From Treponema sp. (GTDB taxonomy: Bacteria; Spirochaetota; Spirochaetia; Treponematales; Breznakiellaceae), in the NCBI GenBank assembly GCA_009777535.1, contig WRLP01000006.1, positions 62,001-126,000 of the forward strand: DNA of 64,000 nt, given 5' to 3'. The translations under genes were made by a program, and so were the position numbers. Within the stretch, counting starts at the first letter, position 1. Every line of letters begins with the position of its first letter. Of the stretch, positions 28,243-48,535 are shown piece by piece. The notes beneath the pieces are model-generated. The model was not told where the DNA came from. It made no database searches and was given only the letters and a program-made list of their open reading frames with translations.

Positions 28243-29475
28243 TCAATTCCGGCTGTCCGCCTTTTTGAATATAAGCGATGTGTTTATTCCACCGAACGCA
28301 AAATTGTTGGTCATGACATACCCTGTATCAATTTCACGGCCGGCGCCGGTGATATAGTCCAGGGGTGCGCATAATGGATCCAATTCTTTCAGATTGATAT
28401 TCGGCATAAACCACTTTCTATTCATCATTAAGATCGAAACCCACGCTTCTACCGCCCCGCAGGCGCCCAGCGTATGGCCGGTAAAGTTTTTTAGGGTGCT
28501 CACCGGCACCGCCCTTTTAAACACATCGTATGTGGCATGAGACTCGGCTATATCACCGGCGTCGGTGGCGGTTCCGTGCATATTAACATAGCCAATTAAA
28601 TCAGGATTAATACCGGCATCGTTAAGTGCAAGCTGCAGCGCGCCTCCCATTGTTTCGGCCATAGGCTGGGTTACATGTCTGCCGTCGGTATTTGTACCAA
28701 AGCCGGCAACTTCGGCAAAAATGTACGCGCCGCGCTTGACCGCATGTTCCCACTCTTCCAGAACCAGCGCACCGGCGCCCTCCCCCACTACAAGGCCGTC
28801 CCGGGATTTATCAAAAGCCGCCGGCGTCAATTCGGGGTAATCGTTTCTTGTACTCGCGGCGAACAGGGTATCGAAAATAGCCGCGTCCACAGGGCTCAGT
28901 TCGTCGGCGCCTCCTGCGATTATAATGTCCTGTATGCCGTTTTGAATTGCTTCGTAAGCCAGCCCAATAGCCATGCTTCCTGCAGTACATGCGGTATTGG
29001 TAGTGATAATCCGCCCTGTTAAACCGTAAAAGACCTCGATATTTACAGCGCATGTATGGGGCATGGCTCTTATATAGGTAGTGGCATTAATGTTCTTCAT
29101 GTCGTTGTTTATAAGAACTCCGTATATATCGAGCATGGCGTCAACGCTGCTCATCGAAGAGCCAAACGCAACGCCGGCGCGGCCGGATGTAAGAGCGGGG
29201 TTATCTATCAGGGCGGAAAGTTTCATGGCATTGTCTGCCGCAACCAGGGCAAACTGACCAACCCTGCCCATTCCACGGATTTTCTTCCTCGGATAATCCG
29301 GCATGATAAAATCCACAGGAGCAGCAAGCATTGTATTCATTTGGGTGTATTTTTCCCATTCTTCCATTCTGCGTACACGGTTTTTTCCTTCTTCCAGAGT
29401 CTTAAAAATCGCCGCTTCATCACTTCCTATTGAACTGACAATTCCGCCTCCGGTAACCGCCACCCTTCTTTTCAT
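28243..29475 (-). CDS. Beta-ketoacyl-ACP synthase, ApeR-like, aryl polyene cluster
   Basis: The 410-residue condensing enzyme has an intact Cys-His-His triad: Cys163 in TTNTACTAGSMAIG, His in YVNMHGTATDAGD and His in NFTGHTLGACGA, so it should be catalytically active. It is the last gene of the leftward polyene operon; order ketosynthase, dehydratase, ketoreductase, ketosynthase matches apeO-apeP-apeQ-apeR as I recall it. ATG 29475 overlaps the ketoreductase stop by one base (TAATG) and has GGAGGG upstream. It probably extends the chain or initiates the polyketide; the fatty-acid FabF role cannot be excluded. Confidence 0.88.
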   Translation of the reverse strand: MKRRVAVTGGGIVSSIGSDEAAIFKTLEEGKNRVRRMEEWEKYTQMNTMLAAPVDFIMPDYPRKKIRGMGRVGQFALVAADNAMKLSALIDNPALTSGRAGVAFGSSMSSVDAMLDIYGVLINNDMKNINATTYIRAMPHTCAVNIEVFYGLTGRIITTNTACTAGSMAIGLAYEAIQNGIQDIIIAGGADELSPVDAAIFDTLFAASTRNDYPELTPAAFDKSRDGLVVGEGAGALVLEEWEHAVKRGAYIFAEVAGFGTNTDGRHVTQPMAETMGGALQLALNDAGINPDLIGYVNMHGTATDAGDIAESHATYDVFKRAVPVSTLKNFTGHTLGACGAVEAWVSILMMNRKWFMPNINLKELDPLCAPLDYITGAGREIDTGYVMTNNFAFGGINTSLIFKKADSRN

Positions 29476-30200
29476 TAAACAAGCCCTCCGTCTACGGCAA
29501 TAACCTGCCTGGTGATATATGAAGCCCCTTGTGAAAGAAGAAAAACCGCCAGGGCGGCAACTTCTTCCGGTTTTCCAATTCTCTGCATGGGAATAACCGG
29601 TAAAATCCTTTCCAATGGGGCATTTTCGATCATATCTGTCTCTATTACTCCCGGAGCGATGCAGTTAACTGTTATTGAACGGCTTGCCAATTCAATCGCC
29701 AGCGCCTTTGAAGCGCCTATAATGCCCGCTTTGGAAGCGCTGTAATTAACCTGCCCCCTGTTACCCGCAATACCGGAAACAGAGGCGATGGTTATTATTC
29801 TGCCCTGTTTTTTCCGGCACATCGGCATAACAAGGGGAAAAAGCACATTGTAAAAAGCGCCAAGATTGGTATGGATCACGCTGTCCCAATCCCCGCCGCT
29901 CAGCGCCGGAAAGGCGTTGTCCGCGCACATACCGGCGTTGCAGATAACGCCCCAAAACGCACCGTGTTTTTCCACACAGGCATCAAGCTCTTTTTTGCAT
30001 TCATCGCGTTCTGCAATGTCAAAACGTACAAGATCAATTTCCCCGCCCCTGGAAAGAATTTCTTCCCGAAGGGAGGCCGCCCCTTGTTCATTGCGTCTGT
30101 AGTGAGCAATAACAGAATACCCGGCGTGGGAAACCGCAAGGGCAATGGCGCGTCCGATTCCCCTGTCTGCGCCTGTTATCAAAACTTTTTTATCTTTCAT
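29475..30200 (-). CDS. fabG: 3-ketoacyl-ACP reductase (FabG/ApeQ-like)
   Basis: The 241-residue SDR has the cofactor motif TGADRGIGRA, NAG at about 87-89, and the catalytic Ser in IASVSG with YSASKAG (Tyr-x3-Lys). It reduces the beta-keto group after each condensation, here in polyene chain building. It has AAAGGAAAG before its ATG and overlaps the dehydratase by 11 bases. Confidence 0.93.
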   Translation of the reverse strand: MKDKKVLITGADRGIGRAIALAVSHAGYSVIAHYRRNEQGAASLREEILSRGGEIDLVRFDIAERDECKKELDACVEKHGAFWGVICNAGMCADNAFPALSGGDWDSVIHTNLGAFYNVLFPLVMPMCRKKQGRIITIASVSGIAGNRGQVNYSASKAGIIGASKALAIELASRSITVNCIAPGVIETDMIENAPLERILPVIPMQRIGKPEEVAALAVFLLSQGASYITRQVIAVDGGLV

Positions 30201-30666
30201 TGCTTTCCTTTTTTATGAATTCATTCGGGTTATCCACATCCATTACCATCAGCCTTGCCGCAGCCGCCTCGCGCTCTCCAACCATTGCACGGCAGCGAAA
30301 AGTTGAAACCGTATCAACCCTCTGCTCCTCTTTGACATCAACCGATACTGTTTCGCCCGATTTGTACACCGGAATATTTATTTCCAGTGATGATACGGAA
30401 AGTATAAATCCCATTATTACCGGTTTATTAAGAATTAATCCCGTTAAACCGGAAAGTGCCGAGATCGCCTGCGCCATGAATTCAAAACATACATATCCGG
30501 GGACTCCGTTCAGCCCTGGATCAAAAAAAATAGAACTCTCTCCAATGTCGAATTCCGAGAGCAGGGTCCGCCCTTCGATATCGTAATCGACAACCCGGCT
30601 TAACAGGAGCATTTTTCCCTTGTGGGGCATTATTTTCAGCATTGTATTGTCGTCGACTATCAACAC
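30190..30666 (-). CDS. 3-hydroxyacyl-ACP dehydratase, ApeP-like hotdog protein
   Basis: The 158-residue protein is a single hotdog fold with MPHKGKMLLLSRV (catalytic His) at about 13-26 and the central helix VCFEFMAQAIS carrying an acidic residue. It would dehydrate 3-hydroxyacyl-ACP to form the double bonds of the polyene. The start is GTG 30666 (GGGAGAA upstream), overlapping the ketosynthase stop; TTG 30663 is nearly as good. It occupies the ApeP position, and a second dehydratase domain lies at the end of the fusion at 37772. Confidence 0.82.
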   Translation of the reverse strand: MLIVDDNTMLKIMPHKGKMLLLSRVVDYDIEGRTLLSEFDIGESSIFFDPGLNGVPGYVCFEFMAQAISALSGLTGLILNKPVIMGFILSVSSLEINIPVYKSGETVSVDVKEEQRVDTVSTFRCRAMVGEREAAAARLMVMDVDNPNEFIKKESNER

Positions 30667-31832
30667 TTTCTCCCGATTATCAATGATGTATTACAGCCGC
30701 CAAAAGCAAAAGAATTACTCATGCACACTTTGGGATTGCCAACAGTCGAAGGGGAAGCAAAATTCAGGGGAGGCATTTCTTCGTCCGGGCGGCCGTCCCA
30801 GCAGTGAGCTGGAAGAGCGCCCTCCGCCAGAGCCATCCAGCACAGGGCAAGTTCAAGCGCTCCGGCGGCTCCCAGTGTGTGCCCTGTTATGGGCTTTGTA
30901 GAACTAACCGGCGGCGGCTTACCGGCGAATACCGCCTGAACCGCCAGGGCTTCCATAATGTCGTTTAACGGGGTTCCCGTTCCATGTAAATTGATATAAT
31001 CCACATCCGGGGCACAAACGCCGGCCATTTCCAGAGCTTCCCACATCGCCGCCTGCGCTCCGCTTCCGTCCGGCCTTGGGGCCGTCATGTGATACGCATC
31101 GGAGCTTTCGCCCCAGCCCAATAACTCTATGTTCAAATCCTGTTCCTTCTTTACATCTTCTTTTCGCAGAAGGAAAAAAGCGGCTCCTTCTCCCAGATTA
31201 ATACCCTTGCGGTTCATGCTGAAAGGATTGCAAACCTCGTCAGAAACCGCTTCCAGGGCGGCAAACCCCAAAAGCACTGTTTCCGATACAAGATCAACTC
31301 CGCCGCAAATTACCGCATCGCAAATGCCGCTCTTGATAAGCTGGGCTCCTTTTACTATTGCTCCGGCGCTCGACGCGCAGGCTGTTGTTACGGTCAAACA
31401 TGGGCCCCTGACGTCGAAAAGCGCAGCGGCGAATTCCGCGACCTGGGAAGCGCCCTGATGCTTCAACTCGTATTTTTCAGGGAAGCCGTTCCCTGAAAAG
31501 TAAGCCTTGTGCGCAGGAAGGGACTTTTCCGAACCATTATCACAGGTACCGGCGCACACGCCCACGCGCTCATGTCCATAAATATCAACCGCATCTTCCA
31601 CATCAATTCTGATTTGCTCAAGGGCAATCCGCGCCATGCGAAAAAGACGGGTATCCTCAGAAACGCCCTGTAAGATGCCCTCCGGCACAATACCGGCCGG
31701 GAAGCGCCTGCCGTCCGATGTTAAAAAGGGTATTATTCCCACCTGGTTTCCATGCACCGCGTTATCATAAAGAGCTTCCCTGCCGTTTCCGGCGCAGCAG
31801 ACAAGTCCGGGTGCCGATAAGCTAATACCCAT
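30660..31832 (-). CDS. Beta-ketoacyl-ACP synthase, ApeO-like, aryl polyene cluster
   Basis: The 390-residue enzyme has Cys152 in TVTTACASSAGA, His in INLHGTGTPLND and His in PITGHTLGAAGA, so it is an active ketosynthase. I choose ATG 31832; a GTG at 31844 lacks a ribosome site. In E. coli the ApeO ketosynthase works with a chain-length-factor partner (ApeC); a candidate partner is at 46306-47019. It begins the O-P-Q-R-like block and is divergent from the phosphopantetheinyl transferase. Confidence 0.87.
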   Translation of the reverse strand: MGISLSAPGLVCCAGNGREALYDNAVHGNQVGIIPFLTSDGRRFPAGIVPEGILQGVSEDTRLFRMARIALEQIRIDVEDAVDIYGHERVGVCAGTCDNGSEKSLPAHKAYFSGNGFPEKYELKHQGASQVAEFAAALFDVRGPCLTVTTACASSAGAIVKGAQLIKSGICDAVICGGVDLVSETVLLGFAALEAVSDEVCNPFSMNRKGINLGEGAAFFLLRKEDVKKEQDLNIELLGWGESSDAYHMTAPRPDGSGAQAAMWEALEMAGVCAPDVDYINLHGTGTPLNDIMEALAVQAVFAGKPPPVSSTKPITGHTLGAAGALELALCWMALAEGALPAHCWDGRPDEEMPPLNFASPSTVGNPKVCMSNSFAFGGCNTSLIIGRKC

Positions 31833-31853
31833 TAAAAATCTCACTATACATAT

Positions 31854-31859
31854 ATTATA
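31854..31859 (-). promoter_or_regulatory. Candidate -10 element (TATAAT) for the ketosynthase block
   Basis: Read leftward it is a perfect TATAAT, 21 bases before ATG 31832, in an AT-rich stretch. No convincing -35 element is present 16-18 bases further upstream, so the call is weak. Confidence 0.3.
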
Positions 31860-31931
31860 AAGTTAAACTCCGGACAGTGGTAATGAAGGACACTTCCCAA
31901 CAGGCTCCTATCGGTTCTAAAATAACATGGA

Positions 31932-32624
31932 ATGGCGGTAACATTCAATATTGGTTTATCATTTATGCCGGATGCCGAACGCGGGGATTTAAGCGCTGAA
32001 GGCAGGCGGATTTTATCACTTTTGGATACCGGCATGGCGGATCTGCCGGAAACAGAGGGGGACAGACTTTTTTCCCGTGAAGGCGCAGGAAGGCCGTTTT
32101 TCACCGATCTTCATGCTGATTTCAGCATATCCCATTCCCGAAATATGGCAGCGGCCGCATTGCTTCCCTCCCATGGGGGGAAAATATGTCGTATTGGCTG
32201 CGATATTCAGTATATCGATCCTGCCAAGTCCTGTGTTGGCCTTGGTCGAAGATTTTTTCATAAATCCGAACAGGCATACATTGAAAAAGCCGATGAATCC
32301 CAGGTACGGAATTTTTACCGGATTTGGGTCTTAAAGGAAGCATGGATAAAACTGCATGGATACTCAGTTTTTGAAATCGCGAAGGCTCCGGTTTTCAAAA
32401 TTGGCACACCACCGGCAAAGAATGATAACAATGAGCTGCTGTACCATCTTTACGAGTTGGGGGAATCGTATATGCTTGCCATCGTCCGCCAGCGGCTTCA
32501 TTCGGCAGATGAAGGAGCAGAGCCGGTATTCCGCTGGTTTTCCGGTTCAAAACTGACGCTTAACAGGGTGGAAAATATAAACGCCGAACAAATACCGGAG
32601 AATACGGTTACGCCGAAAATATGA
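31932..32624 (+). CDS. 4'-phosphopantetheinyl transferase, Sfp type
   Basis: The 230-residue protein carries RIGCDIQYID (metal-binding Asp), FSISHSR (N-terminal motif) and RIWVLKEAWIKLHGYSV (the WxxKEA signature). It attaches the pantetheine arm to the Ser of carrier proteins; the three ACPs of this cluster are the likely substrates. It is the only rightward gene between leftward polyene genes and converges on the MMPL gene, overlapping it by 127 bases. Confidence 0.9.
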   Translation: MAVTFNIGLSFMPDAERGDLSAEGRRILSLLDTGMADLPETEGDRLFSREGAGRPFFTDLHADFSISHSRNMAAAALLPSHGGKICRIGCDIQYIDPAKSCVGLGRRFFHKSEQAYIEKADESQVRNFYRIWVLKEAWIKLHGYSVFEIAKAPVFKIGTPPAKNDNNELLYHLYELGESYMLAIVRQRLHSADEGAEPVFRWFSGSKLTLNRVENINAEQIPENTVTPKI

Positions 32625-34969
32625 ACCGGTGCAAAACTGCTCAGGGCAAGCGCCCCGAATGATATAGCCGTGGTTAGGAATGAGAGAAAAATGGCAAATG
32701 TCGTATGCCCCCTGCTCTCCATTCTGTTTTCCACTTCGCAGTTATAGAAAATATAATCCAGGCCAAGGCCGAGTACCAAAATTAAGCCGACAATGGTAAA
32801 GAACCCTACGCTGATATTTAATACTGATAGAACTGAAAAAACCGTTAATGCCAAAAAAACGGGAACCATTAAAATCCTGAAACACTGCTTCCATGTATAA
32901 AACCATTTTACAGCAATCATCAATACAGCAAAGGCAATAATGAAAAAACGCAGCATTATTCGTGTTAAGCTGTCCAGTTCCAGCTGTATATCATTTACCT
33001 TGTTAACAAAAAAAACATTGTCCATTTGTGATGCGATTGCCCTGAAATTTTCTTCGCCAGAGGCATGCAGTGGAAAAACACATGAGTAATATTTGTTCCC
33101 CGATTTTCCAATCCAGAGGCTCGATCTCAATTCGGCGGGAAAGCCGCTGTCATCCGGGAGCAGGAATTGGCCGGCGGCGGCAAATTCCATTTTATATACA
33201 TCTGCGGCCTCTGCGGGGAAGCCGAGAGCGAGAAACTGCGACTCGGCAAGCGGCAGAAGTTTTTCCGCCGCCTGATAGCTACAACGCTGCCTTTTTACCG
33301 AAGGGCAGAAAGAAGAAATCGCCATATACGAACCCAGTTCCCCCCTTGCCATTTCATTATCAAGAGCGGTGCATAGTTCTTCTTCGTTTTGCAGCAATTC
33401 GTCCGGATCGTCCCCCGAGACTATAAAGTACCAGCCGCTGTTGCCATGCTGCAAAACCTGGGCATTTATTCGCTCGGATTCAAATAATTTATCGCTCATT
33501 GAGTAAAGATCGCCAAGACTGTTTTCGATTTTAATTTTTTCCCTGTTATGAAAAAGCAGAATTATAAAGCCTGCAAAGGAAAAAACAATTAGCGACAGAC
33601 AAATACTTTTTACAGTTTTCCGTGGAAACTTGTCTAAAATTTTGGCAATTGGGAACGATATCTTTCTTGATCCCAATTTAATGTGGGGTAATATGCAGAT
33701 AACAGTCAGAAACGAGCTTATAAGACCTGTTATCGAAAAAATGGCAAACTGTTTCAGTATCGCAAACGGAGTAAAAATAAGAAACATAAAGCAAATTGTG
33801 GTAGACAGTAAACACATAAAAATTCCCCGAAAAACCCTTCTTCGTGTTTCCGATCCGACAGCGCAATGTTTCAGCGAAAATAATGAAGGCTGCTCAGGCA
33901 TGGCCTCTGATGAAGCGGCTGCATTCCGGTGTATTATAAAATGAATTGAGTAGTCTACACATGTTCCGATAAGGGTTGTGCCGAAAACAAAACTCAGTAT
34001 GTGAACCTCGCGTAAAAAGAGCATGGCCGATGCAAAAGCGGTAAGCAATGATAAACCTACAGCCAAAAAAGTAGCGGCCAGGGGAACAAGAGATCGGAAT
34101 ATATACAAAAAAATTATAAGTATGGCGGCAAAAGAGGCAAATGATATCAGGGATATTTCTTTCTGCGCGCTTGAAGAACTTTCATAGCTGTGGAATGGTA
34201 TCCCCGAATAATAAAACCTGTACTCAGGGTTCGTCTCCATTAGTTTTTCGCCGGTTTCGTAAATATTCTTTACCGCGCTTTCCCTGTTTGTAAGCGCCAG
34301 CCCAGCAGGCGAAAGGCTGCCGCGTATCAATACATACCAGTTTCCCTCAAATTGCGCGGCCATAACATCGTCATGGACGGATACATTGCCGCTGGAAAGC
34401 AGGGGCGAACCTATTATTCTCTGCATTGATCTTTCCACCAGCATGAACGGGTCGCTGTCCAGAGCGTCAAGAGGGGCCAGGGTAAAGGGGCTGTAAACAG
34501 AGGCAAGCGCGTTTGTGGCAATGGCCCGGGCGCCTCCGCTTTCCAGCGTTTCTATTGTTTCACTGTCCAGAAGCATAAAACGGTAATCGTGCAGGAAACG
34601 CCTGTACCTGTCGAAAAATGTTTCGTCAGCCCAAAAACTAAGAGATTCAAAATCACCGTCTGTCCCGTCAAGCGCCGAATAAAACTCCAGCGCTCCCGCC
34701 CTGGCCGCGGCAAAATCTTCGTTTGCGGACAATATTACCACAAGCCTTGAATTACGCTCTGCAAGGATTGCGTCCGCCTCGGCGGCGGATTTTAACGCTC
34801 CTGAAACAGGAATTATGTCAAACAGGCTTGTGTTAATCCGCGGCGGCGCGAGGATAAACAGCGAGGCGGCCAGGGACAGAAAAATCCCGCAGTGAAAAAC
34901 AAGCCAGAACATGGGCAGTTTTTTGGCAAGGTGCGGCTGTTCAGGGAGCGGAAAAGTAGGCCTGTTCAT
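32498..34969 (-). CDS. MMPL/RND family exporter, ApeM-like
   Basis: The protein of about 823 residues has an N-terminal membrane helix, a large extracytoplasmic domain, five or six helices (ISLISFASFAAILIIFLYIF and following), a second external domain and a second helix bundle ending near VFSGICSAFIFSTLLSV. It is an inner-membrane transporter that probably carries the polyene lipid toward the outer membrane. I start at ATG 34969 (MNRPTFPLPEQPHLAKKLPM), overlapping the LolA-like gene by 29 bases; ATG 34984 is also possible. Residues near CVDYSIHFIIHR form the conserved GxxxD core of the family. The last 127 bases are antisense to the phosphopantetheinyl transferase gene. Confidence 0.86.
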   Translation of the reverse strand: MNRPTFPLPEQPHLAKKLPMFWLVFHCGIFLSLAASLFILAPPRINTSLFDIIPVSGALKSAAEADAILAERNSRLVVILSANEDFAAARAGALEFYSALDGTDGDFESLSFWADETFFDRYRRFLHDYRFMLLDSETIETLESGGARAIATNALASVYSPFTLAPLDALDSDPFMLVERSMQRIIGSPLLSSGNVSVHDDVMAAQFEGNWYVLIRGSLSPAGLALTNRESAVKNIYETGEKLMETNPEYRFYYSGIPFHSYESSSSAQKEISLISFASFAAILIIFLYIFRSLVPLAATFLAVGLSLLTAFASAMLFLREVHILSFVFGTTLIGTCVDYSIHFIIHRNAAASSEAMPEQPSLFSLKHCAVGSETRRRVFRGIFMCLLSTTICFMFLIFTPFAILKQFAIFSITGLISSFLTVICILPHIKLGSRKISFPIAKILDKFPRKTVKSICLSLIVFSFAGFIILLFHNREKIKIENSLGDLYSMSDKLFESERINAQVLQHGNSGWYFIVSGDDPDELLQNEEELCTALDNEMARGELGSYMAISSFCPSVKRQRCSYQAAEKLLPLAESQFLALGFPAEAADVYKMEFAAAGQFLLPDDSGFPAELRSSLWIGKSGNKYYSCVFPLHASGEENFRAIASQMDNVFFVNKVNDIQLELDSLTRIMLRFFIIAFAVLMIAVKWFYTWKQCFRILMVPVFLALTVFSVLSVLNISVGFFTIVGLILVLGLGLDYIFYNCEVENRMESRGHTTFAIFLSFLTTAISFGALALSSFAPVHIFGVTVFSGICSAFIFSTLLSVSFEPENQRNTGSAPSSAE

Positions 34970-35615
34970 TTGGTTCCAATACATCAGGAAAACTTTGGTC
35001 GTTAAATAAATAAGACAGGCTGTTACCGCTCCTTTCATAAATGATAATTGAACGGATCACTGCCGCGTTTTCGGCATAATATCCTTCGAGAACTATCCTT
35101 TCCGCGTAATTTCTGAATGTCCTTTCTTTTGGCACCAGCCCCAGGCTCCAGGTTTTCCCGAAGGCGGTATCTTCCATAAAAAAGATGTCAAAACCAGATG
35201 TGAGCCTGTGCACATTTCCGGTAAAGAGGGAACTGATGGTATCCGCCATGTTAATGTATATTTCATTGCCCCTTGCGTCGATTCTGGTTCCCGTTCCACC
35301 CGGCACAGATTGAATCATATAGTCCCTTCCCAGCGTGGTTATCGACGGCGCGGGGGTTTTTGTTATCCAGACCATTCCCAGTTCGGAGACGACAATAAAA
35401 TCCCCCGTTGATACAAGCGGGCGGCTCTGATTTCTTATCGTCCTTGTTTGTACAAAGGCGCCCTTTGTAAGCGAGCGGCCTGAAAGATCACGGCAAATAT
35501 TGTAAAAATTTTCGGAATTTCGCACGGACAGGGGGTAATCAAAAACATTCTGGGCGTACAACATGCTTCCCATAAAAAGCGCGCCCATTAAAAAAAATAT
35601 TTTGTTTATTCGCAT
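34941..35615 (-). CDS. LolA-like periplasmic carrier, ApeL-like
   Basis: The 224-residue precursor has a signal peptide (MRINKIFFLMGALFMGSMLYA) and a LolA-type beta-barrel core with VSELGMVWITKTPAPSITTLG. In proteobacterial aryl-polyene loci a LolA-family protein lies beside the MMPL exporter; it may chaperone the hydrophobic product across the periplasm. It lies 17 bases after the thioesterase and overlaps the exporter start. Confidence 0.78.
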   Translation of the reverse strand: MRINKIFFLMGALFMGSMLYAQNVFDYPLSVRNSENFYNICRDLSGRSLTKGAFVQTRTIRNQSRPLVSTGDFIVVSELGMVWITKTPAPSITTLGRDYMIQSVPGGTGTRIDARGNEIYINMADTISSLFTGNVHRLTSGFDIFFMEDTAFGKTWSLGLVPKERTFRNYAERIVLEGYYAENAAVIRSIIIYERSGNSLSYLFNDQSFPDVLEPNEQAYFSAP

Positions 35616-35632
35616 AACTGTTATTATCTTTT

Positions 35633-36064
35633 TTATTCGCCGCCCGCTTTAACAAGAGCTTCCACTCTGGAAATAAATATTTCAGGGCATACCATAAAGG
35701 ACTCCCCGGAAGCTATCTCGACCGCCATCTGTGTACTCTCGCCCTTGGTACACAGCTGACCGGTTTCAGCATTATAAAGCTCGTACTTGATCTTAAGGCA
35801 GTTCTCGTATTCGGTCAATATTGCCCTTGCCCTTACCCTCTCCAGAAATTGCAGTGAGTTTATATATTTTACCGAAACACTTGTAAGGGGAAAAATCCAT
35901 CCGGATTCCCTCATGTGATTATAGTTGTATCCTATTTTATCCAAAAGGGCACAGCGTGCTTTTTCAAAATATTTTATATAGTTGCCATGCCAGACAATCT
36001 GCATGGAATCCACATCATAAAATTCAACATTGAATTCAATTTCTGCGCTTATATCAAACTTCAC
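35633..36064 (-). CDS. Acyl-CoA/ACP thioesterase, 4HBT hotdog family, ApeK-like
   Basis: The 143-residue protein has the 4-hydroxybenzoyl-CoA thioesterase signature FYDVDSMQIVWHGNYIKYFE (Asp nucleophile and HGNY). The start is GTG 36064, preceded by an excellent GGAGGG 5 bases upstream; the frame extends a little upstream to 36097 but lacks a ribosome site. The gene is 14 bases after the acyltransferase stop. It may hydrolyse or edit acyl chains in polyene synthesis. Confidence 0.88.
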   Translation of the reverse strand: MKFDISAEIEFNVEFYDVDSMQIVWHGNYIKYFEKARCALLDKIGYNYNHMRESGWIFPLTSVSVKYINSLQFLERVRARAILTEYENCLKIKYELYNAETGQLCTKGESTQMAVEIASGESFMVCPEIFISRVEALVKAGGE

Positions 36065-36078
36065 AGTCCCTCCATTGT

Positions 36079-40689: not shown

Positions 40690-40718
40690 ATTTAATAAAC
40701 CACTATCGCTGTAATTTG

Positions 40719-40769: not shown

Positions 40770-40794
40770 TTGCTTAACAACAGGCGAGGCATAA

Positions 40795-42057
40795 TTGAAA
40801 TTAAAACTGATATATCCCAAATGGGAAAAATTGAAAGGACAGACAGCATTTAACCTTCCCCCACACGGTCCGGCTGTTTTTGCCGCGTCCCTTCCGCCGG
40901 ACACGGAAATCTCCTTTACCGATGAAAATGTCGATACCATTGATTTTGACGAAGACTGCGCTCTGGTAGCCATCTCCATGATGCTCAGTACCCAGGTTAA
41001 ACGCGGCTGGGCAATAGCCGATGAATTCCGCAGCCGCGGCAAAAAGGTAATTTTCGGCGGCATTGCGGCAATGCTTCATGCAGAGGAAACCATGGAACAC
41101 GCCGATTCGGTTTTTTTGGGAGAAGCCGAAACGCGAATGGAGCAGGTGTTCGAAGACTTTGACAGGGGCAGCCTTAAAAAAGTGTATAACTTTATGCTGA
41201 AGCATCCACCCGCAGAAACCGTAAATCCGGCAAGAAGAGACATTTACAAACGGGAACTTTACAACCACAAGGGCGTCCAGATGGTCGACCTTTTTCATGC
41301 GTCAAGAGGCTGCCGTTTTAGCTGTTATCCCTGCGCCGTATCATATCTGGGCGGGCGTTCTTTCCGCCCCCGCCCCATGAAAAAGGTCGTTGAAGAACTT
41401 GAAGTAATCGGAAACAACCGGCTGTTTATTGTTGACAATTCACTTGCCCAGGACAAGGAATGGGAAAAAGAATTGTTCACAAACATGATCCCAATTAAAA
41501 AGAAATGGATAAGCCACACCATCGAAGATGATCCGGCTGTACTGGAACTCGCGGCAAAAGCTGGCGCGTGGTATGTCTATCAGGCCGTGTACGATACATC
41601 CGATTACATCAGGGAAAGGATTAAGCGATACCATGATCACGGCATCGGCGTTGAAGGGACAATTCTGCTTGGCTTGGATAACCAGAGCGAAGATGATATT
41701 AAAAAGCTGATTGATTTTTTACAGGATATCAATCTTGACTTGGCGGAATTTACCGTGATGACTCCCTTTCCTCACACAAAGGCCTGGGATGATATGTACA
41801 GGCAGGGGCGTATCTTTGACATGGACTGGGATCATTATAACGCCGGGCAGGTTGTTTTTACTCCCAAAAACATGAGCGCCGAACGATTACAGGAACTCTA
41901 TGATTATGCCTGGAAAACCTTCTATCAGGATGAAAGCCAGGAAGAGAAAATGTTCAAACTGCTTTATTCTGTGGCAAGCCGTGAAATGGACGAAGGAACC
42001 TATAGACCACGCAACCGCAAGTTGATTCGTAAATCGTTCGGCAGGGAGGCCGGATGA
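40795..42057 (+). CDS. Radical SAM protein with B12-binding-like N-domain
   Basis: The 420-residue protein has an N-terminal Rossmann B12-binding-like domain (about 1-120; ALVAISMMLSTQVKRG and KVIFGGIAAMLHAEE; the DxHxxG cobalt-ligand motif is not apparent) and a radical SAM domain with CxxxCxxC as GCRFSCYPCAV at about 175-185. A helical tail ends the protein. Members of this class perform methyl transfers or other difficult ring/carbon modifications. The start is TTG 40795 with GGCGAGG upstream; no ATG is better. It is divergent from the ACP operon and overlaps a small gene by 4 bases, so it probably tailors the polyene; this role is inference. Confidence 0.8.
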   Translation: MKLKLIYPKWEKLKGQTAFNLPPHGPAVFAASLPPDTEISFTDENVDTIDFDEDCALVAISMMLSTQVKRGWAIADEFRSRGKKVIFGGIAAMLHAEETMEHADSVFLGEAETRMEQVFEDFDRGSLKKVYNFMLKHPPAETVNPARRDIYKRELYNHKGVQMVDLFHASRGCRFSCYPCAVSYLGGRSFRPRPMKKVVEELEVIGNNRLFIVDNSLAQDKEWEKELFTNMIPIKKKWISHTIEDDPAVLELAAKAGAWYVYQAVYDTSDYIRERIKRYHDHGIGVEGTILLGLDNQSEDDIKKLIDFLQDINLDLAEFTVMTPFPHTKAWDDMYRQGRIFDMDWDHYNAGQVVFTPKNMSAERLQELYDYAWKTFYQDESQEEKMFKLLYSVASREMDEGTYRPRNRKLIRKSFGREAG

Positions 42058-42428
42058 AAGTACCGGCGGATTATTACGACGAAGTTTTTGATTTCAAAGG
42101 CCAGTGGGATATGCCCTCGCGCTGCGGCCTTAAAATTATTAAAAGTAAAGAAAAGACTGTGGTAATCGCCACAGAGCTTTATCAGGATAACCCGGGAACA
42201 ACCGTTGCCGCCGCCGGAAAAAGCCTGGCGCTGCAAATATGCGAAAATAAAAATCTTGACTTTGCGAAAATTAATTTCATTCAGTGCAATCCGTGCACGA
42301 ATTCCAAACTCTCGTTTTACGAAGAAGAATTTTTCGAAGTTGATTTTCCGGAAGGCTCGCCGCCGGTTTACCGTAAACTTGGCGAAGAGGAAATTAAAAA
42401 ACTGGAGTTATTCTGCCCGCAAAATTAA
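42054..42428 (+). CDS. Small protein paired with the radical SAM gene, unknown function
   Basis: The 124-residue protein overlaps the radical SAM stop by 4 bases (ATGA), so translation is coupled. I recognise no family. It is soluble, with Cys at about residue 23 and a pair in FIQCNPCTNS. It could be a subunit or substrate-presenting partner of the radical SAM enzyme. Its C-terminal reading ends 42426-42428, close to or within the unclear start region of the MATE gene. Confidence 0.7.
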   Translation: MKVPADYYDEVFDFKGQWDMPSRCGLKIIKSKEKTVVIATELYQDNPGTTVAAAGKSLALQICENKNLDFAKINFIQCNPCTNSKLSFYEEEFFEVDFPEGSPPVYRKLGEEEIKKLELFCPQN

Positions 42429-43831
42429 AAACACCGCTTACCGGCGACAGGACATTTTACAGGAGTGTACTGACCCTCGGCCTGCCCGTCGCCCTGCAAA
42501 ATCTGCTTGTCAGCTCCGCAAGCATGGTGGACACACTCATGATCGGCACCGAGGGCGAGCTCGCCGTGGCCGCCGTAGGAATATGCGCTCTTTTTTTTAT
42601 GCTCCTCTTTGCGATGTTCTTCGGGTTCGGCCACGGCGGAATGATCTTCTTCGCCCAATACTGGGGCGCAAAAGACGAAAAGGGAATCTGCCGGGCTTAC
42701 GGCCTTACGCTTGTCTGCGTAATGTCTATCGGCCTAATCTTCGGCGGCCTGGCGGTTTTTGCCCCGGAATTTATAATGGGTATTTACACTGATAAAGAGA
42801 GTATAAAGGCCATTGGTATTCAGTATTTAAGGATCGTTGGCTGGAGCTACCCGCTGCAGACAATGGCCATTGTAATGGGCTTTCTCCTGCGCTCAATAGA
42901 AAAGGTAAGAATCCCGCTTTATGCATCAGTTATTTCTCTTTTAACAAACACATTTTTTAACTGGGTTTTAATATTTGGCAGGCTTGGTTTCCCCAAAATG
43001 GGAGTCCGAGGCGCGGCGACGGGAACGGTCATTGCCCAGGTGGTTCATGTTCTGGTGATCTTTGCATACTGCCTTAATGATAAACATTCGTTCATTACCA
43101 GAATCAGGGACCATTTTAAGTGGAACATTGCCTTTGTTAAGGTGTTCTTCAGTAAAATTATTTTCGTTGTGGTAGGCGAAATCCTATATGGCACCGGAAA
43201 CCTGATTCTGAACATGATTATGGGACGCCAAGCTGAAACAGGGCTCGCAGCCTGGGCTGTGTTCCGCGTGCTGGAAGGCTTTATCTTCGCGTTTTTCATT
43301 GGCCTTTCCAGCGCCAGTTCGGTAATGGTGGGCAAGAAGATTGGCGCAGGCGAACACCTTGAGGGGTACACCAATGCGAAGCGATTCGCCCTTCTTTGCC
43401 CCATTGTAACCTTCACTATTTGCATTTCCATTATTCTTGCCCGTTCGCCGATACTGCATTGCTTTAATCTGGGGGAAGAAGCCTTCCGTTATGCACAAGG
43501 AATGCTTTTCATCTTCGCCATAACCGGAACCATGCGGACATGCAACTACATTTGCAATAATATCTTCAGGGCCGGCGGAGCGCCTGTCCTGGGTACGGTT
43601 CTTGAAGGCTGCGGCCTTTATTTTATCTGCATACCTTCCGCCGCCATCGCCGGCTTTGTTTTCCACTGGCCTTTCCTGGCCGTGTTCTTCATGATGTACC
43701 TCGATGAATTTATCCGCCTTGCGGTAAGCCTTTGGTACATGAACTCGGGCAGATGGATAAAACCGGTAACGGACGAGGGAAAAGCAAGCCTGGCGGAATT
43801 TAAATCAGCGTACACTGCCCTGAAAAATTAA
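42413..43831 (+). CDS. MATE family exporter, start codon unclear
   Basis: The protein has twelve membrane helices and the two-repeat MATE structure (LMIGTEGELAVAAVGICALF; MGRQAETGLAAWAVFRVLEG). The first ATG (42524) would remove the conserved N-terminal helix FYRSVLTLGLPVALQNLLVS, which is encoded in frame from 42398. No ATG, GTG or TTG occurs in that stretch; CTG 42413, five bases after GGAG, is my tentative start, while ATT 42410 and CTG 42470 are alternatives. MATE proteins export cations or lipophilic compounds. Its 3' end contains a 23-base sequence that recurs at 44801-44823. Confidence 0.78.
   Translation: MPAKLKTPLTGDRTFYRSVLTLGLPVALQNLLVSSASMVDTLMIGTEGELAVAAVGICALFFMLLFAMFFGFGHGGMIFFAQYWGAKDEKGICRAYGLTLVCVMSIGLIFGGLAVFAPEFIMGIYTDKESIKAIGIQYLRIVGWSYPLQTMAIVMGFLLRSIEKVRIPLYASVISLLTNTFFNWVLIFGRLGFPKMGVRGAATGTVIAQVVHVLVIFAYCLNDKHSFITRIRDHFKWNIAFVKVFFSKIIFVVVGEILYGTGNLILNMIMGRQAETGLAAWAVFRVLEGFIFAFFIGLSSASSVMVGKKIGAGEHLEGYTNAKRFALLCPIVTFTICISIILARSPILHCFNLGEEAFRYAQGMLFIFAITGTMRTCNYICNNIFRAGGAPVLGTVLEGCGLYFICIPSAAIAGFVFHWPFLAVFFMMYLDEFIRLAVSLWYMNSGRWIKPVTDEGKASLAEFKSAYTALKN
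43783..43805. repeat. 23-base direct repeat, left copy (3' end of MATE gene)
   Basis: Begins AGCAAGCCTGGCGGAA and is identical to 44801-44823. It encodes the SLAEFK stretch near the MATE C-terminus. Confidence 0.9.
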
Positions 43832-43833
43832 AC

Positions 43834-43863
43834 TTGACCTCTCCCCTATTTTAGTGTTAATAT
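43834..43863 (+). promoter_or_regulatory. Promoter of the cassette lipoprotein
   Basis: TTGACC (43834-43839), then TTAATA at 17 or TAATAT at 18 bases (43857-43863), directly after the MATE stop. Expected start near 43870. Confidence 0.6.
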
Positions 43864-43907
43864 GAATAAGTTGTCCTAACAACTACATTTAAGCTATGGA
43901 GAGTCTT

Positions 43908-44747
43908 ATGAAAGAGAAAATCATAAAAATTGGATTGACAGCGGTTTTATTTACAACCGGATTGATTTTTATTGGCTGTCCAACCGGAGGCGGCGGCGGT
44001 GACAGTAATCCGTTCATTGGAACCTGGGAAGGGACATTGACTAATAATTCCGGTACTTATACTTATGCTGATGAAGAAATAGTGTTTACCGGCAATGAAT
44101 GGGAAATGGGCTTTGCCGGGGAAGGTACGTACCATAGAAATGGAAATACTGTTATTTTGTACGATGAAGATGATGAAGAAATTGGCTTCGCAACGATAAA
44201 TGGTAATTCTTTGACGATAACTTTTTACTATGGTAGTGATAATATTGGCGGCACCTTTACAAGAAAGGGCGGTTCCGGGGGCGGTGGCGGCTCCGGAGGT
44301 GGAGGGGGAGGATCCGGTTCTGGTGTTGGAAAGACCTTGCTCATCACAGGGATTACACAAGCGCAATATAATCAGGGCGAAGACGGCGTTCTGGTGCTGG
44401 TATTCCCAAGAAATACATCACAAAATGTTGTATTAAACGACATATATGTATACATGAGCGGAAATGGATACGGATATACCGGGTCGTTTATTGCCGGCTC
44501 CGATTTCGATGATGGAGATATTGAAATTCAAAAAAGCGGAAATAACTATAATATGACCGTTTATTTATATGATTTTGACGGGGACAGATGGACTGGTTCA
44601 GGGTCTTACGATATATGGCTAGCCTTGTTAAGAGAAAATAGGGGGACTTTATACCAGGCGGCGAACAAATCAATAACATCGTCAACAACAACAATTCCCG
44701 CGTCCCAATTCACCAACAAAGGGTCACAGAATTTATGGGATTATTAA
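43908..44747 (+). CDS. Lipoprotein with glycine-rich linker, within repeat-bounded cassette
   Basis: The start is ATG 43908, with GGAGAG 4-9 bases upstream; an ATG at 43896 lies inside this site. The 279-residue protein has a lipobox (GLIFIGC, Cys near 24), an N-terminal lipocalin-like beta domain (NPFIGTWEGTLTNNSGTYTY, about 33-120), a Gly/Ser linker (about 120-142) and a C-terminal beta-rich domain (LLITGITQAQYNQGEDGVL). It has its own promoter and a downstream hairpin. Such two-domain lipoproteins are abundant in Treponema; function unknown. Confidence 0.85.
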   Translation: MKEKIIKIGLTAVLFTTGLIFIGCPTGGGGGDSNPFIGTWEGTLTNNSGTYTYADEEIVFTGNEWEMGFAGEGTYHRNGNTVILYDEDDEEIGFATINGNSLTITFYYGSDNIGGTFTRKGGSGGGGGSGGGGGGSGSGVGKTLLITGITQAQYNQGEDGVLVLVFPRNTSQNVVLNDIYVYMSGNGYGYTGSFIAGSDFDDGDIEIQKSGNNYNMTVYLYDFDGDRWTGSGSYDIWLALLRENRGTLYQAANKSITSSTTTIPASQFTNKGSQNLWDY

Positions 44748-44757
44748 TTTAACAAAA

Positions 44758-44802
44758 CTCCCGCCGGGGCAACCGCTATCCGCTATTTATGTCCCGGCGG
44801 AG
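44758..44802 (+). terminator. GC-rich hairpin after the cassette lipoprotein
   Basis: CCGCCGGG (44761-44768) and CCCGGCGG (44793-44800) form a stem extended by CTC/AG, with a loop of about 24 bases. No T-run follows, so termination would be inefficient. The right arm abuts the direct repeat at 44801. Confidence 0.4.
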
Positions 44803-44823
44803 CAAGCCTGGCGGAATTTAAAT
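44801..44823. repeat. 23-base direct repeat, right copy
   Basis: Identical to 43783-43805. If the two copies recombined, the MATE reading frame would continue to LKLR and a stop within 11-12 bases. Confidence 0.9.
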
Positions 44824-44861
44824 TGAAACTACGGTAAGGCGGAACATACAGACAGGTATCT

Positions 44862-45113
44862 TTATGCCTCGTTTTTCCACAGCGGATACAGTATATCGAC
44901 AACATCCTGTACCGTTTTTACGTTCCTGAAAATAGACGATTCGGGCTTTCCCTCAATATGGTTTTCCAGGTAAATCAGAAGATCCACGGCGTCAAGCGAA
45001 TCAAAATCCAGCTCATCTTCCAGCAGCTTATCAGGGCTTATCATATCTTCCTGTAAGCCAAATTTGTCCATTAGCAATTTTTTTACTGCTGCGTAAACAT
45101 CATCTTTGCACAT
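44862..45113 (-). CDS. Acyl carrier protein, third copy, stand-alone
   Basis: The protein of 83 residues has DELDFDSLDAVDLLIYLENH with the modified Ser, and a C-terminal TVQDVVDILYPLWKNEA. The start is ATG 45113 (MCKDDVYAAVKKL); the frame upstream to 45146 is promoter DNA. It lies opposite the methyltransferase with overlapping promoters, so a role with the chain-length-factor arm is likely. Confidence 0.9.
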   Translation of the reverse strand: MCKDDVYAAVKKLLMDKFGLQEDMISPDKLLEDELDFDSLDAVDLLIYLENHIEGKPESSIFRNVKTVQDVVDILYPLWKNEA

Positions 45114-45125
45114 AACTATTGATAA

Positions 45126-45154
45126 GTATAACAGGATTGACATCATTTTGTCAA
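45126..45154 (-). promoter_or_regulatory. Promoter of the third ACP gene
   Basis: Read leftward: TTGACA (45149-45154), spacer of 17, TTATAC (45126-45131). Close to consensus. Confidence 0.85.
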
Positions 45155-45166
45155 AGGTACTATCAT
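45137..45166 (+). promoter_or_regulatory. Promoter of the methyltransferase operon
   Basis: TTGACA (45137-45142), spacer of 18, TATCAT (45161-45166). Its -35 forms the palindrome TTGACATCATTTTGTCAA (45137-45154) with the opposing -35. Confidence 0.7.
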
Positions 45167-45181
45167 TTGGTTATATAACTT

Positions 45182-46309
45182 ATGAAAGGAAAAAGGCAGT
45201 TAACGCAGGACTTTTATTATTCCGATGATATTCCCGCGGTAGAAGCTAAATTCGAGGCCCAAAAAATATGCTTTTCCCCGCTTGCTTTTCAGGCTGTCCG
45301 CTCCCTGCTGTCCCTGGGCATTTTGCAAAAAATATCGGATGCCGGCGATACCGGCCTTAACAGGGAAGAAATCGCTAAGCAGTGCAGCGTCAGCGTTTAC
45401 GGAGCCGGGGTTCTGGCGGAAACAGCCCTTGGAATGGGTGTGTTAAAGCTAAGACCGTCAGAAAATGCCCAAGACGAAGAACGGTTCGTGCTTGGAAAAA
45501 TTGGCTGGTTTTTCCTGGAAGACAATATGACAGCAGCCAATTTTAATTTTATTAATGATGTCTGTTATCTGGGCGCCCATGATCTTGAAAAATCAATTAA
45601 AACCGGAAAACCCCAAGGGCTTTCAGTTTTTGGCCGTCAGTGGAAAACCATATACGAAGCGCTCTCGTCTCTTCCAGAAAAGGCGAAAAAAAGCTGGTTC
45701 GCCTTTGATCACTTTTATTCAGACATCGCTTTCCCCGACGCCCTGCCCATTGTTTTTTCATCTCCGGCGCTTGCAGCCGGCCGCCTTTTTGACATAGGCG
45801 GCAATACGGCAAAATGGGCAATCGCCTGCTGCAATTACAATAAGGACGTAAAGATTACGATAATCGACCTTCCAGGACAAACCGAAGTAGCCCTGCAAAA
45901 CGCAAAGGCGGCCGGCTGCGAGAGCAGGATAGATGTTTTCCCCTGCGATGTATTGGACGAAAAAGCGGCCTTCCCCGCCGGCGCGGCGGCAATTTGGATG
46001 AGCCAGTTTCTTGATTGTTTCTCGCTGGAGCAGGTTACGGCCATCATGGCCAAGGTTTACGCCGCAGCGGAAAAAGACACGGATATTTGGGTGCTGGAGC
46101 CTCTTTGGGACATGCAGCGTTTTCAGGCTTCAGCATTTTCTCTACAGGCAGTCTCCCTGTACTTTACATGTATGGCAAACGGCTGCAGCAAGATGTACCG
46201 TTACGCCGAACTTTGCGCCGCGGTTGAAAAGGCTGGTTTTGTGTTAAGCGAAAGCCATCATAATTTGGGATCAAACAGCTATTCACTGCTTCGTTTCAGA
46301 AAAAAATGA
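45182..46309 (+). CDS. SAM-dependent methyltransferase, O-methyltransferase type (ApeB-like)
   Basis: The 375-residue protein has an N-terminal winged-helix dimerisation domain (about 25-110) and a C-terminal class I methyltransferase (about 185-370; AAGRLFDIGGNTAKWAIACC, VKITIIDLPGQTEVALQNA, FPCDVLDEKAAFPAG). This is the architecture of small-molecule O- and C-methyltransferases. In known aryl polyenes the aryl head is methylated, so this is a plausible ring methylase. It begins the rightward operon and overlaps the next gene by 4 bases. Confidence 0.84.
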   Translation: MKGKRQLTQDFYYSDDIPAVEAKFEAQKICFSPLAFQAVRSLLSLGILQKISDAGDTGLNREEIAKQCSVSVYGAGVLAETALGMGVLKLRPSENAQDEERFVLGKIGWFFLEDNMTAANFNFINDVCYLGAHDLEKSIKTGKPQGLSVFGRQWKTIYEALSSLPEKAKKSWFAFDHFYSDIAFPDALPIVFSSPALAAGRLFDIGGNTAKWAIACCNYNKDVKITIIDLPGQTEVALQNAKAAGCESRIDVFPCDVLDEKAAFPAGAAAIWMSQFLDCFSLEQVTAIMAKVYAAAEKDTDIWVLEPLWDMQRFQASAFSLQAVSLYFTCMANGCSKMYRYAELCAAVEKAGFVLSESHHNLGSNSYSLLRFRKK

Positions 46310-47019
46310 AAGTTAGTAATACAGGCGGCAGAACCTTATATGTATCCCGCTTTTCTTCATGGGCGCCCGGACTTAGCGGCGCAAATGACTGGCTGCAGTG
46401 GGCGCACGGACGGAAAGAAAGCGAATCAAGCGGCGAAGCCCCTTCCCTTGATTTTCCTGAATCGCGGTGGATTGTACTTGAGCAAAAAGAATTCTCACTG
46501 TTCAGGCGCCGGCAGAGCCAGATCTCACGAATGACAATACACGTCATGCACGAGATCATGCCCATTGGAGAAAAAACAAAAACAGTGTTTGTTTCATTCA
46601 GGGGTGAAATATCCCAACAGTATAAAATCAACAAAACGTTATACGAAGAAGGCACTGTAAGCCCCGCCGCTTTTTCGCAGTCTGTTTTCAACACCCCGCC
46701 GGCTCTCGCAGCAATAGCTCTGGGGCTGCATCAGGGTTACACGGCAATTTATCCGGCAGGCAGCTGCTTCAAAACCGCCTTCCAGGCGGCGGCCGCCGGC
46801 ATTTTTTCCGGTAACGATACGGAAACTGTTCTCGTATACGCTGATGAGCTATGCCCTGCGGAATACGGCGCACTCTGCCCCCGGCCGGACAAACCCCTTG
46901 CCTTTGCCGCACTTCTTTCAGGCCATGCGCCGGGTATCCCTGTTTTTCCTGATATGGAGTGCCTTAATTCTCCGCAAAATTTTTTGAAACATCTTTATCT
47001 TAAAAAGGACGTTTCGTGA
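46306..47019 (+). CDS. Ketosynthase-like chain-length factor (ApeC-like)
   Basis: The 237-residue protein has the opening FSSWAPGLSGANDWLQWAHG of the beta-ketoacyl synthase N-terminal-like family, and SVFNTPPALAAIALGL and YPAGSCFKTAFQAAA in the core, without the full KS catalytic triad and without a C-terminal thiolase half. Its length and sequence fit ApeC, which partners a ketosynthase as chain-length factor. It overlaps both neighbours. Confidence 0.8.
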   Translation: MKVSNTGGRTLYVSRFSSWAPGLSGANDWLQWAHGRKESESSGEAPSLDFPESRWIVLEQKEFSLFRRRQSQISRMTIHVMHEIMPIGEKTKTVFVSFRGEISQQYKINKTLYEEGTVSPAAFSQSVFNTPPALAAIALGLHQGYTAIYPAGSCFKTAFQAAAAGIFSGNDTETVLVYADELCPAEYGALCPRPDKPLAFAALLSGHAPGIPVFPDMECLNSPQNFLKHLYLKKDVS

Positions 47020-47807
47020 ACACTTCATTGCCGCCGGTCAGTAACCGGCCTTTATATGTTTACCGAATCGTATTTAAGGTAATCAGTTTTATAATTTTCG
47101 GATTGGCTTCCCTTCTCCTGGTGTTTCCAATCATGCCTGTTTTTTTACTCATCTTTCGTCCTGTTGAAAATTTCCGTAAAACAACGCGCCGCTTTGTTTC
47201 ATTCTTCTTTAGATTTTTCATTTCCTTTATGACATTCACCGGCGTTGTTGAATTGAAAACCGCAGACAGGGATTTTTTTAAGAACTTAAAATCGAAAATT
47301 GTAGTCGCAAACCACCCTTCACTCCTTGATGTAGTTATGATCATTTCCCTAATCCCAAATGCCGATGTAATTGTTCAGGGTGATTACCGCAACACAGTTA
47401 TAGGCGGAGTGATCAGGCTTCTTTACATTCTTAACACGCTGAATTTTGAGGAGATGGCTGCCGCATGTAAAGAATCGCTGGCAAAGGGTAACTGCCTGGT
47501 TATTTTTCCCGAAGGAACCAGAACACGCCGCGATGGAGAAATGCGCCTGAAGAAGGGCGCCGCGCGCATTTCCCTGCTGACAGGAACGGAAATTGTCGCC
47601 GCCCACATCGGGGGAACGGACAAATACGGCCTTGGAAAAAAGGAGCCGTTCCTTTCGTTTAACCATACCGATAAATATATTTATATAATCACTCTTCAAA
47701 AAATTATTAACCCAAAAGAATTTGAAGGATTGGAAATGCACCGCGCTGTAAGAAGGCTTAATGAACGGCTTCTGGATATATTCAAAAACCCGGTTAACAA
47801 ACAATGA
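47016..47807 (+). CDS. LPLAT/PlsC-type 1-acylglycerol-3-phosphate acyltransferase (ApeD-like)
   Basis: The 263-residue membrane protein has two N-terminal helices and the family motifs VVANHPSLLDVVM (NHxxxxD) and VIFPEGTRTRRDGEMRLKKG (FPEGTRS-type). It would transfer the polyene or a fatty acyl chain to a glycerol or sugar lipid. The start is GTG 47016 with AAGGA upstream, overlapping the previous stop; it overlaps the following lipoprotein by 4 bases. Confidence 0.87.
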   Translation: MNTSLPPVSNRPLYVYRIVFKVISFIIFGLASLLLVFPIMPVFLLIFRPVENFRKTTRRFVSFFFRFFISFMTFTGVVELKTADRDFFKNLKSKIVVANHPSLLDVVMIISLIPNADVIVQGDYRNTVIGGVIRLLYILNTLNFEEMAAACKESLAKGNCLVIFPEGTRTRRDGEMRLKKGAARISLLTGTEIVAAHIGGTDKYGLGKKEPFLSFNHTDKYIYIITLQKIINPKEFEGLEMHRAVRRLNERLLDIFKNPVNKQ

Positions 47808-48535
47808 GAAATTATTTTTATCTGTTAATTGCAATTTTTACTTTATTCGCCGGCGGCTGCAATACCATCACGAAGGCTAACCACGAATTCGAAATTGACA
47901 GAATGGCGGTAATACTTACCTTTGACGACGGCCCGAATTCAAATGCCGATACAACGGCGCATGTTCTGGATGTACTCAAAAAACATGATATTACCGCCAT
48001 GTTCGCCCTGTTAGGTGTAAATGCGACGCGTAATCCTGAGCTAACAAGACGCATTCACGATGAAGGGCATTTTATAATTAACCACGGCTATTCCGATAAA
48101 TTTGCCATTAATATGAAAAATGGAGAATTCAGGGAAAATTTAAGGAATGGAGAGGCGGCGATTACAGAGGCCCTGGGCGCCCCGCTTAACATAAGGCTAT
48201 ACCGGCCCCACGGTGATTTTTACCGCCGACGGCACGAAAGAATCTGGCAGGAAGAAGGCTGGATATTGCTGGGCGGCAATATCAGGGCTTACGATGCTGT
48301 AATCAGGGAAGCGGAAAAAGATAAAGTGAAAAGGCGTATAATCGGCAAAACCTTAAAAAAAGGGGGAGGAATTATTTTGCTTCATGATGCAAGGGATTCT
48401 TACCTGCGTATGGAGGTTGGCCTGGCAAAAAAACCATCGGGCCCTTTTAACCGCTCCTGGATCCCTGAAATTTTGGAAGAAATCATTATCGACCTGCTTG
48501 AAAAAGGCTACAATTTTGTTGTCCCTGAATGGTAA
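47804..48535 (+). CDS. NodB-type polysaccharide deacetylase-like lipoprotein
   Basis: The 243-residue protein has a lipobox (LFAGGC, Cys near 19) and a NodB domain with LTFDDGPNS (Asp pair) and GGIILLHDARD. Motif 2 is unusual: NHGYSDK has the first metal His but Asp instead of the second His. RPHGD replaces RPPxG. Deacetylase activity is therefore doubtful, or the metal site is altered. It ends the rightward polyene operon, at a position where a lipoprotein such as ApeN could be expected, but has no resemblance to it. Confidence 0.82.
   Translation: MRNYFYLLIAIFTLFAGGCNTITKANHEFEIDRMAVILTFDDGPNSNADTTAHVLDVLKKHDITAMFALLGVNATRNPELTRRIHDEGHFIINHGYSDKFAINMKNGEFRENLRNGEAAITEALGAPLNIRLYRPHGDFYRRRHERIWQEEGWILLGGNIRAYDAVIREAEKDKVKRRIIGKTLKKGGGIILLHDARDSYLRMEVGLAKKPSGPFNRSWIPEILEEIIIDLLEKGYNFVVPEW

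Follow-up and report, generated by a model that had tools for sequence, protein, structure and literature searches.

Can a spirochete make aryl polyenes (APEs), the membrane-bound, yellow, carotenoid-like lipids of Proteobacteria that are regarded as pigments with a protective role in Gram-negative bacteria, and if so from which starter and with which modifications? The question is raised by a stretch of 64,000 nucleotides (the window) from contig C6 (WRLP01000006.1, positions 62,001 to 126,000) of the 2.77 Mb genome of a Treponema sp. (GCA_009777535.1), a spirochete related to termite-gut treponemes, for which an earlier inspection of the letters alone (the sequence-only reading) had claimed an aryl-polyene-type cluster. 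We found that positions 28243-47807, by direct protein comparison, hold homologues of 16 of the 18 ape genes of Escherichia coli CFT073 (apeA-apeR, c1204-c1186). Its homology, gene order and phylogeny make it very probable that the locus is an essentially complete APE cluster, with an aryl polyene as the predicted product. Identification drew on Pfam and NCBIfam profiles, best PDB matches, the comparison with the 18 CFT073 genes and a ketosynthase tree.

One-to-one best matches in CFT073 were obtained for B, C, D, E, F, G, H, I, J (two proteins), K, L, M, O, P, Q and R, with E-values down to 1e-151. The likeness extends to the order of the main, leftward arm, which runs E, F, a fused GHI, a family-2 glycosyltransferase (GT2) and an acyltransferase that together correspond to a split ApeJ, and then K, L, M, O, P, Q and R, the order that the sequence-only reading had likened to that of E. 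coli (E-F-(GHI)-J-J-K-L-M-O-P-Q-R). The rightward arm consists of B-C-D (45182-47807), with the gene of a third acyl carrier protein (ACP) divergent from B, and neighbouring genes mostly overlap by a few bases. Two ACPs (ApeE and ApeF), a ketoreductase, two dehydratases and an aryl-ACP ligase are all present, as are the transport and anchoring genes D, J, K, L and M. The window differs from CFT073 in its fused GHI and split J, in the separate B-C-D arm, the third ACP, a 4'-phosphopantetheinyl transferase (PPTase) of its own and an added radical S-adenosylmethionine (radical-SAM) pair, and in that no homologue of ApeA or ApeN was found within it. Relatives from this class and order have gene sets colinear with it, which excludes chance or an assembly effect. 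The genes of the two arms are the following.

28243-29475, minus strand: ApeR, homodimer-type ketosynthase; NF006587 596 bits (cut-off 470), 51% to E. coli ApeR
29475-30200, minus strand: ApeQ, ketoreductase; FabG-type NCBIfam models, 55% to E. coli ApeQ
30190-30666, minus strand: ApeP, dehydratase; PF22817 (ApeP-like) 36.8 bits (cut-off 27), 29% to E. coli ApeP
30660-31844, minus strand: ApeO, ketosynthase partner of the chain-length factor; NF006618 404 bits (cut-off 407, 3 short), 38% to E. coli ApeO
31932-32624, plus strand: AcpT-like PPTase; NF007676 (AcpT) 57 bits (cut-off 174, not reached)
32498-35038, minus strand: ApeM, MMPL/RND-type exporter; PF03176 and HpnN-type models, 24% over 798 amino acids to E. 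coli ApeM (5e-44)
34941-35615, minus strand: ApeL, LolA-like periplasmic lipid carrier; NF053544 (LolA2_flexi) 35 bits, below cut-off, 24% to E. coli ApeL (2e-7)
35633-36097, minus strand: ApeK, thioesterase; PF13279 (4HBT_2), 45% to E. coli ApeK
36079-37092, minus strand: C-terminal half of ApeJ as its own gene, LpxL-type acyltransferase; PF03279, 31% to that half of E. coli ApeJ (4e-40)
37026-37775, minus strand: N-terminal half of ApeJ as its own gene, family-2 glycosyltransferase; PF00535, 46% to that half of E. coli ApeJ
37772-40126, minus strand: ApeG-ApeH-ApeI fusion with the membrane protein ApeG N-terminal, then the aryl-ACP (AMP) ligase, and dehydratase ApeI C-terminal; PF00501 and PF22818, three successive stretches matching E. 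coli G (47%), H (27%) and I (27%)
40166-40426, minus strand: ApeF acyl carrier protein; NF003757 95 bits (cut-off 65), 42% to E. coli ApeF
40423-40740, minus strand: ApeE acyl carrier protein; NF006617 99 bits (cut-off 70), 51% to E. coli ApeE
44862-45146, minus strand: third acyl carrier protein, ApeF-like; NF003757 67 bits (cut-off 65)
45182-46309, plus strand: ApeB, aryl methyltransferase; NF053543 (FlxJ family) 430 bits (cut-off 560, not reached), 43% to E. coli ApeB
46306-47019, plus strand: ApeC, truncated chain-length factor; PF13723 and a spirochete ApeC profile
47016-47807, plus strand: ApeD, lysophospholipid-type acyltransferase; PF01553, 32% to E. coli ApeD (8e-22)

The aryl-polyene-type claim is borne out by the ketosynthase clades, by profiles for ApeO, ApeC and ApeR, and by the gene order. 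Both ketosynthases are intact. In a tree of 56 ketosynthases, in which FabF from E. coli and from the host genome, but no FabB, stood for the ordinary type, ApeR of the window joins the ApeRs of E. coli and spirochetes (support 100/99) and the window ApeO joins their ApeOs (high support), both apart from FabF. With FabF as its comparison, the tree rules out that these are ordinary FabF/FabB-type enzymes. The best PDB matches are 7f27 for ApeR (478 bits) and the ApeO chain of 6qsp for ApeO (251 bits), entries which we take, in part after PMC8358021, to be ApeR of Acinetobacter baumannii and an ApeO-ApeC pair. The clusters of A. baumannii and Xenorhabdus doucetiae thus supply the nearest solved relatives of these ketosynthases, although the window sequences are clearly diverged from them. 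In A. baumannii ApeR, Tyr135 and Phe202 are reported to stack the aryl group (PMC8358021), and alignment to 7f27 shows both residues kept in the window protein as Tyr134 and Phe201. For ApeC the single-sequence comparison with E. coli was the weakest of the set (E = 0.005); a profile of other spirochete ApeCs, however, has E. coli ApeC as its sole E. coli match (1e-27) and recovers the window protein at 2e-71. In deep-branching spirochetes we also observed ApeE-ApeO-ApeC (ACP-ketosynthase-chain-length factor) triple fusions of about 740 amino acids (L117 502-2697, L113 13785-15998, L111 15234-17414). They form a ketosynthase branch of their own, and also support ApeC as the partner of ApeO. 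In one Treponema locus (L064 7300-7405) the gap between apeM and apeP is too short for apeO, which may have moved or been lost.

Such clusters are common and widespread in the spirochetes sampled. Among 393 genomes of the phylum, ApeR (NF006587) matches were found in 61, with 54 above the curated cut-off, and ApeP-like (PF22817) matches in 49, with 32 above cut-off; colinear clusters occur in loci from other families and genera, the named neighbouring loci being Treponema metagenome-assembled genomes. Genome mining has also listed arylpolyene clusters, of the same phylum and cluster class, in Treponema_D gut genomes; as they stand in excerpts of those reports, these entries are a class label only, without gene content, starter or radical-SAM gene (PMC8863827, PMC10904984). 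Presence in spirochetes is therefore not itself new, and the view that APEs are not a well-known trait of the phylum, as the sequence-only reading had it, needs correction.

All the functions listed in that reading were recovered by profile searches, yet its inventory overlooked three genes in the middle of the cluster which, together with a lipoprotein gene, lie between the two arms.

40795-42057, plus strand: B12-binding radical-SAM protein with a CxxxCxxC motif, divergent from apeE; best model TIGR04013 at 61 bits (cut-off 251)
42054-42428, plus strand: small protein, overlapping the radical-SAM gene by 4 bp
42425-43831, plus strand: MATE transporter (PF01554), overlapping the small-protein gene by 4 bp

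Profile searches placed the radical-SAM protein above the cut-off of no curated family, and the small protein had no Pfam or NCBIfam match. Membership of the MATE gene in the cluster is uncertain, and it is generally not kept in related loci. Relatives of the radical-SAM protein are present in 17 other sampled genomes (two weak or partial), and the full-length ones are 61-82% identical. Those within APE loci include two from genomes of the same genus, 82% and 80% identical, and others from contigs of termite Treponema at 79-80%. Outside the spirochetes, distant plasmid matches at around 30% identity were noted. In the genomes G352 and G177, and likewise in L081, L084 and L089, which are contigs from Treponema, the gene falls within the APE locus, shares its strand and immediately precedes the gene of the same small protein; L089 is apparently the G177 contig, so these loci are not all independent. 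The small protein was found in 11 other loci and directly adjoins the radical-SAM gene in 9 of them, and it was not detected nearby in a few radical-SAM loci. Where loci of deeper families offer enough sequence, most have the radical-SAM gene about 10 kb or less from APE-like genes.

Might the two genes nevertheless be chance neighbours of the APE operon that do not act on its product? We regard this as a serious if lesser possibility, since they are transcribed divergently in the window, are missing from most APE loci of the Treponemataceae, and in L120 and L124 occur as a pair with no APE genes within 10 kb. Against it stand the same-strand placement inside APE loci elsewhere, the nearness to APE-like genes in other families, the identity of the full-length relatives and the recurrent adjacency of the small protein. 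On balance we lean towards a role of the pair in the APE product. Most likely it would add an oxygen-independent modification, such as C-methylation, in this host and several other spirochete lineages. The more specific proposal is tentative: in some anaerobic spirochetes the B12-radical-SAM protein and its small partner may methylate or cyclise the aryl head or the polyene chain, a carbon-carbon modification that needs no oxygen. To our knowledge such chemistry has not been described for aryl polyenes, and in the literature searched we found no paper that links aryl polyenes to both radical SAM and cobalamin. Most Treponemataceae APE loci have neither the radical-SAM gene nor the ammonia-lyase discussed below, and hence neither is required for APE as such, the radical-SAM gene being accessory. 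In two loci of the window's own genus (L108 and L110) an APE locus with the radical-SAM gene had no ApeR at a stringent threshold, indicating that locus content varies inside one genus.

Which starter feeds the chain is the next question. No ApeN, ammonia-lyase or 4-hydroxybenzoate synthesis gene was seen in the window, from which the sequence-only reading had concluded that the starter must come from elsewhere or differ; supply from elsewhere agrees with what we found, and the missing gene is probably on another contig. Single-family searches of the host genome found neither UbiC, a further difference from CFT073, nor urocanase. They did find one aromatic ammonia-lyase, on contig C25, scoring 411 bits against the BagA/FevW tyrosine ammonia-lyase (TAL) model and 378-387 bits against histidine models, all below cut-offs. 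The lyase has the 4-methylideneimidazole-5-one (MIO) motif ASG and, at motif 2, the Gln that marks TAL and phenylalanine ammonia-lyase (PAL) (PMC3992019). Its motif 1, Phe-His, is non-diagnostic. The usual motif 1 of histidine ammonia-lyase (HAL) is also unlike Phe-His. The characterised TAL FlxA likewise lacks the usual selectivity switch (PMC3992019). An 80% identical lyase lies directly downstream of apeR in locus L063, and orthologues are in or beside the APE loci of G352, G357, G369, G354, G075, G064 and G201. Twelve of the 15 lyase genomes are positive for ApeP or ApeR (enrichment p ~7e-8, phylogeny ignored), and two of the remaining three (G042 and G139) carry APE-like O/C/E/P/Q genes. 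A histidine ammonia-lyase is disfavoured by motif 2, by the lack of a urocanase match and by the orthologues beside apeR.

Because no UbiC or urocanase was found, motif 2 is of the TAL/PAL type and orthologues are placed in APE loci, we consider it likely that the starter is tyrosine-derived 4-coumarate, as in flexirubins, and in this the host probably differs from X. doucetiae and A. baumannii. The competing possibility is 4-hydroxybenzoate from an unrecognised source (diet or another route), with the ammonia-lyase unrelated. This is the starter of E. coli-type APE (PMC8253772), and it would suit the lack of a TAL in most Treponema APE loci and the location of the host lyase on a different contig. 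We nonetheless judge it rather unlikely, given the missing UbiC and the motif 2, urocanase and gene-neighbourhood results that together favour the tyrosine-derived start.

A tyrosine-derived start also brings to mind the flexirubin clusters of Bacteroidetes (e.g. FlxA TAL; Chitinophaga pinensis, PMC3992019), in which an aryl polyene is esterified to dialkylresorcinol. The window shares with them the inferred TAL-type start (by way of the TAL-like gene in the genome), a methyltransferase nearest to FlxJ, a ketoreductase that matches FlxB and a LolA-like carrier nearest to LolA2_flexi. Every flexirubin equivalog model, however, remained below its cut-off (FlxA 333 of 700 bits, FlxB 253 of 340, FlxJ 430 of 560, LolA2 35 of 125), the gene order and ketosynthases are of the ape type, and no DarA/DarB-type dialkylresorcinol gene was recognised among the cluster open reading frames, to which that search was confined. 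A flexirubin product is thus highly improbable. Equally remote is a divergent type II system for polyunsaturated fatty acyl chains that makes no aryl polyene: the enzymes are kin to those of fatty acid synthesis and the aryl starter is deduced, but the tree puts the ketosynthases with ApeR and ApeO, ApeR keeps its two aryl-stacking residues, and genes for an aryl methyltransferase and a TAL-like enzyme go with the locus.

Several points weigh against an essentially complete APE cluster with a tyrosine-derived starter and a radical-SAM modification. ApeN was not found in the window, and a genome search with PF11659 (ApeN, LolB-like, DUF3261) gave no match, but this profile matched no control either; other spirochete loci have weak ApeN-like open reading frames in the interval from M to O. 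In the window the apeN place of E. coli is occupied by the PPTase gene on the opposite strand, as it is, in place and strand, in L128-L130, L136, L138 and L147. ApeO, ApeB, the LolA-like protein and the lyase miss several of the curated equivalog cut-offs. The lyase gene lies outside the cluster in the host genome, its motif 1 departs from the TAL pattern (His first), and the enrichment p-values ignore phylogeny. To these is added the absence of both lyase and radical-SAM gene from most Treponemataceae APE loci. A fold assignment for the small protein was tried and set aside, the model being too poor (predicted local distance difference test, pLDDT, 62) and without a significant structural match.

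Combining the E. coli and Xenorhabdus pathway (PMC8253772) with the sequence evidence presented here, we propose the following working for the APE cluster. The ammonia-lyase of contig C25 would convert tyrosine to 4-coumarate. The local PPTase would activate an ACP, onto which the ApeH part of the GHI fusion would load this acid. Malonyl units would then be added to the chain by ApeR and by ApeO paired with ApeC, each step being reduced and dehydrated by ApeQ, ApeP and ApeI to give a conjugated polyene, and ApeB would methylate the ring. The GT2, the two acyltransferases and ApeK would build the polyene into a glycolipid, which would serve as an antioxidant pigment once ApeM and ApeL had exported it to the outer membrane, and the B12-radical-SAM protein with its small partner would add an oxygen-independent modification to the product. 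Seen across this locus and its relatives, the full APE pathway is distributed over a phylum whose outer membrane is atypical, in some lineages with a probable second, tyrosine-based chain start, and with a conserved B12-radical enzyme alongside. The radical-SAM gene and its small partner are a concrete target in the search for a new modification in a class of lipids that is very widespread. Since the hosts are presumed anaerobes, an antioxidant pigment in them needs explaining.

Directly beyond the rightward arm is one further gene of interest.

47804-48535, plus strand: polysaccharide-deacetylase-like lipoprotein (PF01522); a homologue (47%) lies close to the APE locus in L064

Its product is possibly a de-N-acetylase for the lipid head group. 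The APE lipid of Xenorhabdus contains galactosamine, which would fit such a gene. AccD-AccA (48786-50371) adjoins the APE genes here and in L064 (15486-16304) and L109 (430-1206). We rejected the idea that it is a dedicated second malonyl-CoA supply, as it is the genome's sole ACCA match. A Gly-rich predicted lipoprotein at 43896-44747, within the cluster, matched nothing in Pfam or NCBIfam, and the compared loci held no homologue of it. The two divergent intergenic regions, at 40719-40769 and 45125-45166, contain overlapping back-to-back promoter-like sites, identified by consensus match only, and a TTGACA/TTGTCA core is common to both, perhaps pointing to joint control of the two arms. To the left of the cluster, positions 22892-28026 encode a SPASM radical-SAM protein, a cytidylyltransferase and a methyltransferase, which are probably part of an unrelated surface-glycan locus.

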